Shown piece after piece: positions 22,392-25,728 of a stretch of 64,000 bases of DNA. The DNA lies in contig JAAFJX010000001.1 of the NCBI GenBank assembly GCA_013299045.1, positions 62,001 to 126,000 of the forward strand, in the 5' to 3' direction. The stretch is from Cytophagales bacterium (GTDB lineage Bacteria; Bacteroidota; Bacteroidia; Cytophagales; Bernardetiaceae). The position numbers and the translations under genes were made by a program. Within the stretch, counting starts at the first letter, position 1, and every line of letters starts with the position of its first letter. The notes below the pieces were generated by a model. That model was given only the letters and a program-made list of their open reading frames with translations. It had not been told where the DNA came from and did not search any database.

Positions 22392-22937
22392 ATGAACAAG
22401 GTAGATTTTTTTGAGTTAGGTTATATCTTGCGCCCACATGGTACGCAGGGCGATATGGTCGTGGTACTGGATACTGAAAATCCTGAGGCTTACTTCAAAA
22501 TCAAGCATATTTTTATTGAGCAGAAGCAAACCTATTTGCCTTTTGGTGTAACTGCCCTCAAAAAACAACAAAGCCAGCTTATCCTGAGCCTAGAGGACGT
22601 GAAAACCGAACAACGCGCTCGCGAACTGAAAGGCAGCGCACTTTTTTTGCCTCTCAAGGACTTGCCAAAACCCAAAGATGACGAATACTACTTGCACGAT
22701 TTGGTGGGTTTGTTGGTGGTAGATGCCACACACGGCGAACTAGGCCTAGTAGAATCGGTTTATGAAGCACCACAATACAATTTACTGGCCATCAATCATA
22801 AAGGGCACGAGTTGCTTGTACCGCTCACAAAAGTTTTTGTGCCAGAACTGGATTTTGAGCGCAAGCAGATAAAAACCTCCCTCCCCGAGGGCTTCTTGGA
22901 AGTCTATCTTACGGAGGACGAGGAGGAGGAAGACTAA
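22392..22937 (+). CDS. rimM: Ribosome maturation factor RimM
   Basis: 16S rRNA-processing/30S maturation factor that binds ribosomal protein uS19; 181 residues, two beta-barrel domains. The N-terminal signature is FFELGYILRPHGTQGDMVV and the PRC-barrel begins at DDEYYLHDLVGLLV, with LGLVESVYEAPQYNLLAI and LLVPLTKVFVPELD. The tail is very acidic (TEDEEEED). The usual partners rpsP and trmD are not adjacent here. Confidence 0.95.
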   Translation: MNKVDFFELGYILRPHGTQGDMVVVLDTENPEAYFKIKHIFIEQKQTYLPFGVTALKKQQSQLILSLEDVKTEQRARELKGSALFLPLKDLPKPKDDEYYLHDLVGLLVVDATHGELGLVESVYEAPQYNLLAINHKGHELLVPLTKVFVPELDFERKQIKTSLPEGFLEVYLTEDEEEED

Positions 22938-23026
22938 CCTTATTCATATTTTCTTACTCATTTATTTGCAATTTGGCATATCATTGAGCTAATTTGGACT
23001 GTTGCAACCAGTATTGACACATACCA

Positions 23027-23461
23027 ATGATTCTAAGTATTACAACGACGCATTATCCCGCTACGGATTTGGGCTTTTTGCTCCACAAACACCCCGATAA
23101 GTTTCAGACAGTGGAACTCTCTGTGGGCAAGGCGCACATTTTTTATCCCGAAAAAAGTGACGAAAAAACCACCATCAGTCTTTTGCTTGATATAGACCCC
23201 GTGGACATGGTGCGCAACGGTAAAAATTTGAGTGGAGATGGTTTTACGCTTGGCCACTACGTGAATGACAGACCTTATGTGGCTTCATCGTTTATGAGTG
23301 TGGCTTTATCTAAGGCATTTTCTTCGGCCATGAACGGAAAATGCAAAGACAAGCCCGAATTGGTTGAAATGAAACTCCCTTTTGAAGTGAGTATTGCGGT
23401 CATTCCTGCACCACTACCGAAAAAAACAACAGAATTTTTTAAGTATTGTTTGGGAAATTAA
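23027..23461 (+). CDS. Isolated N-terminal domain of RNA-repair protein Hen1
   Basis: 144 residues matching the start of bacterial 3'-terminal RNA ribose 2'-O-methyltransferase Hen1: ITTTHYPATDLGFLLHKHPD, GKAHIFYPE, LLLDIDPVDMVR, HYVNDRPYVASSFMSVALS, KCKDKPELVE and an AVIPAP segment. In full-length Hen1 (about 460 residues) this region belongs to the N-terminal half that contacts the Pnkp ligase; the methyltransferase half follows. Here the frame stops after FFKYCLGN and the ssb promoter begins 13 bases later, so the rest is absent, not merely frameshifted. No Pnkp gene is in the window. Either a stand-alone domain protein or a truncated relic; the intact reading frame favours function. Confidence 0.75.
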   Translation: MILSITTTHYPATDLGFLLHKHPDKFQTVELSVGKAHIFYPEKSDEKTTISLLLDIDPVDMVRNGKNLSGDGFTLGHYVNDRPYVASSFMSVALSKAFSSAMNGKCKDKPELVEMKLPFEVSIAVIPAPLPKKTTEFFKYCLGN

Positions 23462-23481
23462 AATCTTGTTCTTTACCTTTG
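23449..23481 (+). promoter_or_regulatory. Promoter of ssb (TTTG-N21-TACCTTTG)
   Basis: TTTG at 23449-23452 and TACCTTTG at 23474-23481 match the Bacteroidota -33/-7 pattern with 21-base spacing. The -33 element overlaps the last codons of the Hen1-like gene; ssb starts 45 bases after the -7 box. Confidence 0.6.
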
Positions 23482-23526
23482 TCAATAGTCAAGATAATTT
23501 CTTAACAAGTTTTTACAGAAAGCAAT

Positions 23527-23991
23527 ATGGCATCAGCAATCAATAAAGTCATTCTCATTGGCAATTTGGGTCGTGACCCAGAGGTACGTGAAACAGGTAA
23601 CGGCATCAAAGTTGCCTCTTTAAATTTAGCCACTACCCTCACATACTTTGACAAAGAAGCAAACGAACGCAAAGAAATTACAGATTGGCATCGCATCGTT
23701 CTCTGGCGCGGTTTGGCCGATTTGGCCGAAAAATATCTCCGTAAAGGCAGCAAAGTGTATGTTGAAGGACGCTTGAGTACGCGCTCCTACGAACAAAATG
23801 GTGAAATGCGTTATATTACCGAAGTAATTGGTTCGGACATTGTGCTGCTTGGCGGGCGTACTGATGGCGGCCCCGTGAGTGTGGATAACGTAGTGGGCGA
23901 AGAAGACATGAGTGCCATATCGCGCAATTCTGCTCCCAAGGCCGTGCCTAGCATAGAGGCCGAAGGCCCAACAGATGACTTGCCTTTCTAA
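23527..23991 (+). CDS. ssb: Single-stranded DNA-binding protein
   Basis: Essential ssDNA-binding OB-fold protein for replication, repair and recombination; 154 residues. The OB core runs INKVILIGNLGRDPEVR, ASLNLATTL, TDWHRIVLWRGLADLAEKYL, GSKVYVEGRL and RSYEQNGEMRYITEV. A disordered linker leads to the acidic partner-binding tip DDLPF, the classical C-terminal peptide. Lies between the Hen1-like gene and dnaX, with its own promoter, possibly co-transcribed with dnaX (57-base gap). Confidence 0.97.
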   Translation: MASAINKVILIGNLGRDPEVRETGNGIKVASLNLATTLTYFDKEANERKEITDWHRIVLWRGLADLAEKYLRKGSKVYVEGRLSTRSYEQNGEMRYITEVIGSDIVLLGGRTDGGPVSVDNVVGEEDMSAISRNSAPKAVPSIEAEGPTDDLPF

Positions 23992-24048: not shown

Positions 24049-25728
24049 ATGGATAATTTTGTTGTTTCGGCACGAAAGTACAGACCCTCAGAGTTTGACT
24101 CTGTGGTGGGGCAGTCCCACATTACCACCACCCTCAAGAATGCTATCAAAAGCGGGCATTTGGCTCAGGCTTTTTTGTTCTGCGGGCCTAGAGGGGTGGG
24201 CAAAACGACCTGTGCCCGTATCTTGGCCAAAACAATCAACTGCGAAAATCTAAGCCCAGAGGTAGAACCCTGTAATGCCTGCGCTTCTTGCACAGCTTTT
24301 AATGCACAAGGCGCGCTCAATATTACCGAGCTAGATGCGGCCTCCAACAACTCCGTAGAGGACATTCGTAATCTGATAGAGCAAGTTCGCTATCCACCTC
24401 AGCACGGCAAAAGGAAGGTTTACATCATTGATGAGGTGCATATGCTCTCTAATCAGGCTTTCAATGCTTTTTTGAAAACCCTTGAGGAGCCACCCGCTTA
24501 CGCCATTTTTATTTTGGCTACTACCGAAAAGCACAAAATCATTCCCACGATTCTGTCGCGCTGCCAAATTTTTGACTTCAACCGAATTCAGGTCAAGGAT
24601 ATTGCTGTTCAGTTGCAATACATAGCCTCTCGCGAGGGTATTGAGGCCGAGCCCGATGCTTTGCACCTCATTGCACAAAAAGCAGACGGAGCACTGCGCG
24701 ATGCTCTCTCTATATTTGACCTCATGGTTACCTTTGCTCCAGACCGCATCCTGCGCTACAAGAGCGTGGTGCAGAACTTACACGTTCTAGACCATGACTA
24801 TTACTTTAGGCTAACAGACTCTTTTTTGGCCGAAGACCGCTCGGCAGTCATGTTGCTTTTTGATGACGTACTGCGGCTCGGTTTTGATGCGCAAAACTTT
24901 CTCATTGGGCTTAGCGACCATTTTCGCAACCTGCTTATGTGCAAAGAATCTGCTACGGTGCATCTTTTGGAGGTGTCGGACGGTGTGCGTGCATCTTACA
25001 TACAACAGTGCAAAATGCTCTCAGCCTCTTTTTTGCTTTCGGCCATGTCGCTGACCAACGACTGCGAGCAGCAATACAAAAGCAGCAAGCACCAGCGTTT
25101 TTTGGTAGAAATCTGTTTGCTTAAAATCACACATCTGCCTTCTGCTTTTCAGGTTCGGAACAGCATAGAAGAATTAAAAAAAAAAGTTGAGTTAAGCACG
25201 CACAGTACGCCTAGCACACCCGCGCAGAAAGCGCCAAACTCTTCGGCCAACACAGAAGGGGCTGCCCTTAAAAGCACAGGAGGCAAGCTACTGAAACCAG
25301 GCGACTACAGCGAAATACTAAAAAGTTTACCCGATAAGCCCAGCACTATTGCAGAACCCATTGAAGCTCCCCCTCTTAGCCCAGAAAATTTGTGCAGGCT
25401 TTGGGAAGAGTTTATGAAGGAGAATAATACAAGCCCTGGCGCTATGAACTTTGTGCCGCCATTCAATGTAGAAAGCCCGCAAAGTGTTATCATAGAACTA
25501 AAATCGCTGGGCGAAGAAAACGTCTATAACCAACATAAAAATAAATTACTGCCCGCGTTCCGCAACAAATTCAGGCTTCCAAAGCTAGAGTTGCGTATAG
25601 AAATCAAAGCCCAAGCACCCATACAGACAGCTCGCCCCTACACTCAAACAGACAAGATAAACTTTTTGAGCGACAAATACCCAGACTTTAAAGCATTTAT
25701 AGACCGTTTTGACTTAAAGGGAGAGTGA
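24049..25728 (+). CDS. dnaX: DNA polymerase III subunit gamma/tau
   Basis: Clamp-loader ATPase, 559 residues. Walker A GPRGVGKTT (46-54), zinc module Cys65/75/78/81, Walker B IIDEVHML (126-133), SRC sensor in TILSRC, and domain III up to about residue 375. The remaining region is a Pro/Ser/Thr-rich linker and a tau-type C-terminal part for helicase/polymerase contact. Codons 376-379 contain ten consecutive A (25176-25185); a slip in either direction stops within two codons, yielding a gamma-like product of 380-381 residues ending right after domain III, as known for Thermus dnaX slippage. Confidence 0.97.
   Translation: MDNFVVSARKYRPSEFDSVVGQSHITTTLKNAIKSGHLAQAFLFCGPRGVGKTTCARILAKTINCENLSPEVEPCNACASCTAFNAQGALNITELDAASNNSVEDIRNLIEQVRYPPQHGKRKVYIIDEVHMLSNQAFNAFLKTLEEPPAYAIFILATTEKHKIIPTILSRCQIFDFNRIQVKDIAVQLQYIASREGIEAEPDALHLIAQKADGALRDALSIFDLMVTFAPDRILRYKSVVQNLHVLDHDYYFRLTDSFLAEDRSAVMLLFDDVLRLGFDAQNFLIGLSDHFRNLLMCKESATVHLLEVSDGVRASYIQQCKMLSASFLLSAMSLTNDCEQQYKSSKHQRFLVEICLLKITHLPSAFQVRNSIEELKKKVELSTHSTPSTPAQKAPNSSANTEGAALKSTGGKLLKPGDYSEILKSLPDKPSTIAEPIEAPPLSPENLCRLWEEFMKENNTSPGAMNFVPPFNVESPQSVIIELKSLGEENVYNQHKNKLLPAFRNKFRLPKLELRIEIKAQAPIQTARPYTQTDKINFLSDKYPDFKAFIDRFDLKGE
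25176..25185 (+). promoter_or_regulatory. A10 candidate slippage site in dnaX
   Basis: TTA-AAA-AAA-AAA-GTT in frame. One extra A (or a -1 ribosomal slip) gives AGT-TGA; one fewer gives AAG-TTG-AGT-TAA. Both lead to immediate stops at the boundary between the clamp-loader core and the tau-specific region. Confidence 0.5.

Follow-up and report, generated by a model that had tools for sequence, protein, structure and literature searches.

The 144-residue open reading frame (ORF) between rimM and ssb in the studied window, a stretch of 64,000 nucleotides from a Cytophagales bacterium, is very probably a recently truncated remnant (i.e., a pseudogene) of hen1, left over from an RNA-repair operon (Hen1-Pnkp) that has spread horizontally. 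Most likely this is not a new protein but an ordinary gene remnant of fairly recent origin. Its identity as Hen1, the sharp end of the homology, the missing rest of Hen1 and missing Pnkp, a tail unlike Hen1, and an incomplete predicted fold were observed, and we infer that the loss came about through a deletion at this locus and that what remains has no function. The features of the locus are collected in Table 1.

Table 1. Coordinates of the hen1 fragment and its surroundings in the window
Feature	Position	Strand	Description or evidence
rimM, upstream neighbour	22392..22937	+	Pfam RimM / PRC_RimM
Truncated hen1 ORF	23027-23461	+	ATG to TAA, 144 aa
Probable 5' remnant of hen1, codons 1-129	23027..23413	+	First half of Hen1_L ligase-activating domain
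Non-Hen1 tail of the ORF, residues 130-144 (LPKKTTEFFKYCLGN), and stop codon	23414..23461	+	Overlaps the ssb promoter
Presumed Bacteroidota-type ssb promoter	23449..23481	+	TTTG (-33-like) and TACCTTTG (-7-like); sequence, alignment, and pattern match
ssb leader, conserved with a same-genus genome	23462..23526	+	Local alignment
ssb, downstream neighbour	23527..23991	+	Pfam SSB, E 6.2e-33
dnaX, gene after ssb	24049..25728	+	Pfam DNA_pol3_delta2 and DNAX_ATPase_lid

As the original prediction had it, the frame is free of internal stops from its ATG to its TAA at exactly these coordinates, and it begins with the N-terminus of Hen1. Residues 1-129 correspond to positions 1-128 of the 242 positions in the Pfam model Hen1_L (PF12623; 186 bits, E 6.6e-55), cover positions 1-126 of 462 in the NCBIfam Hen1 equivalog model TIGR04074 (193.6 bits), and match the solved Hen1 N-domain (PDB 4dqz; 162 bits over 1-128), a resemblance that by sequence comparison is far above chance. 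At the DNA level, this part is 74-77% identical to the closest full-length hen1 genes (blastn). The likeness to bacterial Hen1 (TIGR04074) thus extends over residues 1-129, which reach as much as 87% identity with full-length Hen1 proteins and retain the family-conserved residues, whereas the ORF differs in having neither Hen1_L positions 129-242, which are needed for a complete N-terminal ligase-activating domain, nor the methyltransferase domain (Hen1_L is the sole Pfam match in the 144-aa ORF), nor a pnkp partner gene; its score also stays below the curated whole-protein cut-off of TIGR04074 (193.6 vs 340 bits). The earlier label of an N-terminal domain therefore holds for the part of Hen1 concerned, but only about half of that domain is encoded, so it is not a whole unit.

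Similarity to full-length hen1 genes breaks off at 23412-23413 in the best blastn matches, confirming the proposed truncation. Within 23413-23526, none of the three forward frames resembles the remainder of Hen1, which agrees with the earlier statement that no downstream frame carries the rest and rules out a continuation hidden downstream by a frameshift. The last 15 codons of the ORF have a G+C content of 24.5% (0.245 vs 0.442 for the hen1 part), and their similarity to Hen1 codons 130-154 is not above that of shuffled sequences. A diverged Hen1 segment (the KGGE..FEPLGY region) was ruled out, with both nucleotide and amino-acid scores falling within those of shuffles, and comparison of the tail with the 3' ends of hen1 and pnkp gave no match beyond chance.

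The DNA in which the frame ends resembles the upstream region of ssb. Judged by the general Bacteroidota promoter consensus, the ssb promoter has its TTTG at about 23449, within the last codons of the ORF, and its TACCTTTG ends at about 23481; a -7-like element of the TAnnTTTG type is common to the window (TACCTTTG) and to the only same-genus genome compared (G001, 84% complete; TACTTTTG). The stop codon had been described as followed directly by this promoter, but the final codons in fact overlap the promoter. When aligned to the region upstream of ssb in G001, 23413-23526 reached a score of 35 (equalled by 3 of 1000 dinucleotide shuffles) and the ssb leader at 23462-23526 alone a score of 30 (0 of 1000 shuffles), while the ORF tail alone gave no significant match to that leader (98 of 1000 shuffles). 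On the simplest reading of these alignments, hen1 codon 129 would be joined to the native ssb leader.

The genes for Pnkp and Hen1 are stated to occur always in one operon (PMC4411300), and pnkp immediately follows hen1 in all nine of the closest full-length relatives inspected. Neither a second Hen1 nor a PNKP ligase (even at E<=1) was detected in the genome studied here, which is 99.8% complete, and no Pnkp remnant was found at the locus of the hen1 fragment; a Pnkp-Hen1 repair system, with pnkp in the operon or elsewhere in the genome, is thus missing. The sole genome match of the Pnkp model was a 25.7-bit metallophosphatase elsewhere, which we rejected as Pnkp since it is a calcineurin-like phosphatase beside a KptA/Tpt1 gene. 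Because the genome has no Pnkp, the fragment would be a ligase-activating module without a ligase of its kind to activate, and the solo ligase-interacting module that had been envisaged finds no support. As a separate observation, the calcineurin-like phosphatase gene lies directly before the gene for the KptA/Tpt1 RNA 2'-phosphotransferase (L002:1441-2818, on contig C32 of the same genome), and the two are possibly an RNA end-processing pair.

Structure prediction with the same 20 alignment sequences gave a mean pLDDT of 65.8 for the 144-residue product vs 86.4 for a full Hen1-N control (242 aa), in which most of residues 1-128, apart from a loop at 61-90, scored about 90 or higher. The cut at 129 takes away helix 132-143 and strands 146-153 and 163-175 of Hen1-N. 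Hen1-N was nevertheless the top Foldseek match of the product (4e6n; TM 0.61, rmsd 3.9), and the best sequence and Foldseek matches of the ORF were found among the structures of Hen1-N alone and with Pnkp-C (PDB 4dqz, 4drf, and 4e6n), although these constructs comprise the whole N-terminal domain and the ORF only its first half. The modelled product is likely an incomplete domain, though the prediction is no proof of misfolding.

With a codon model of 13 sequences, omega was 0.0287 on the ORF branch vs 0.0299 in the background, and omega 1 on that branch was rejected (2dlnL 11.9), these figures being approximate due to low tree support near the branch (30%) and saturated synonymous sites. Under a model in which a constrained past gives way to a neutral final period, that period could account for no more than about 0.11 substitutions per codon (95% limit, interpolated at the 3.84 threshold). 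The omega of 0.029 spans the whole long branch, the full-length past and the time since truncation together, and mostly reflects the former. Codons 1-129 are free of stops, frameshifts, and other signs of decay, and because they look fully constrained, the truncation would be young or, less likely, the fragment would still be in use.

Among genomes of the order, 88 of 390 contained Hen1_L matches, with frames nearly all about 440-600 codons in length. Besides the window, the short-frame exceptions comprised three copies that are seemingly cut by contig ends or located in fragmented assemblies (G299, G221, and G112) and five damaged ones, namely G117 (hen1 frameshift), G071 (Hen1 1-64 only), G323 (Hen1 1-32 only), G023 (Hen1 1-95, broken, close to a C-terminal piece of Pnkp), and G106, a Sporocytophaga MAG in which Hen1 1-146 precedes an overlapping ORF that encodes the C-terminal two thirds of the Pnkp ligase (L120:3727-4978), which is another internal operon deletion. 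Outside the order, a Leptospiraceae UBA2033 MAG (L053:3001-3777) carries Hen1 1-128 joined in frame with positions 219-345 of the Pnkp ligase domain, a fusion that apparently arose through an internal deletion in its hen1-pnkp operon; the end points of the Hen1 part in this fusion and in the window ORF differ by no more than one or two residues. The decayed operons (L053, L120/L073 of Sporocytophaga, G023, G071, and G323) are similar to the window locus in that the N-terminal part of hen1 is left and the 3' part lost, but they are situated at other genomic places and have mostly other end points, and several of them keep part of the Pnkp ligase whereas the window locus keeps none. Since such partial copies, including several with leftover Pnkp ligase, occur elsewhere, the hen1-pnkp operon decays repeatedly.

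The window ORF was the only short match among 395 genomes of the phylum, and the same short form was otherwise absent from these, from the 390 genomes of the order, and from the 80 closest named loci. A family of homologues of 130-160 residues, which the original prediction had proposed to collect, did not emerge, as the other partial copies are contig-edge, frameshifted, or differently deleted ones; the prediction had also taken a lack of similarly short homologues in related genomes as the mark of a decayed fragment, and such homologues are largely lacking, which speaks against a solo module. Nor is there support for the other suggestion, a new user of the fold in this neighbourhood, or for a conserved linkage to ssb and dnaX: in G001 the ssb-dnaX pair is present with a different upstream gene (aminopeptidase-like) and hen1 is missing from the genome (84% complete), and full-length hen1 relatives lie elsewhere and adjoin pnkp. 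A relative with a full-length hen1 at the same locus, which the prediction had named as the other mark of decay, was not found. Upstream of the ORF, whose start is kept, there is a promoter-like sequence at 22966. Full-length Hen1 makes up most of the closest named relatives, and these come from records assigned to several different phyla; this points to horizontal mobility of hen1, with the caveat that some source records are MAGs whose contigs may be misbinned.

Given the intact frame, the retained family-conserved residues 1-129, an omega equal to that of full-length genes, and a possible promoter upstream, we considered whether the ORF encodes a functional stand-alone Hen1 half-domain, i.e., a module binding a ligase or a new partner that was kept after the operon had been lost. 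We regard this as improbable: the genome offers no Pnkp ligase, the short form is unmatched in the order genomes, phylum genomes, and named loci above, its linkage to ssb is not seen elsewhere, the tail is unlike Hen1 and lies partly in promoter DNA, the cut passes through the predicted fold, and the constraint on the long branch is accounted for by a full-length history. For a retained half-domain with a new role, possible at a similarly low or slightly lower probability, the intact conserved frame is the only positive evidence. More doubtful still is the specific version in which the half-domain, having outlived its RNA-repair enzymes, would have become a domesticated 144-residue protein that is transcribed from a promoter of its own and binds a new partner. 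A functional fragment would count as a domesticated half-domain, but the data do not favour this reading. As the assembly consists of 79 contigs, reads from a full-length hen1-pnkp at its true or another locus might have been misjoined to the ssb leader, but the stretch is situated deep within a 277-kb contig, the assembly contains no further part of hen1 or of the pnkp ligase anywhere, and the gene order runs on normally into ssb-dnaX; an assembly error is accordingly very unlikely.

We thus favour a young hen1 remnant, for which a rearrangement or deletion would have taken out the 3' two thirds of hen1 together with all of pnkp and thereby joined hen1 codon 129 to the AT-rich ssb leader, after which the frame would run 15 codons into the ssb promoter until the first stop. 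The locus would then be one more case of a mobile Hen1-Pnkp repair operon that has been lost repeatedly, both within the order and outside it, often with the 5' part of hen1 left behind, and it cautions that even a half-gene that looks pristine and is highly conserved can be a remnant of very recent origin.

A phage origin was rejected, with no relative in phages or viral contigs, and the Hen1 relatives in plasmid records did not exceed 74% identity in the part that matched. In one plasmid, that of Hymenobacter sp. DG25B (L137:3001-3414), the Hen1-like sequence is located near the start of the record and most of it has no listed gene; its overlap with a short ORF, annotated as a ThuA domain protein, is confined to its first bases. 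In an Ignavibacteriota IGN3 record (L041:3001-4098), the hen1 frame stops after 365 codons and a pnkp frame follows, which may reflect a frameshift, a sequencing error, or decay.
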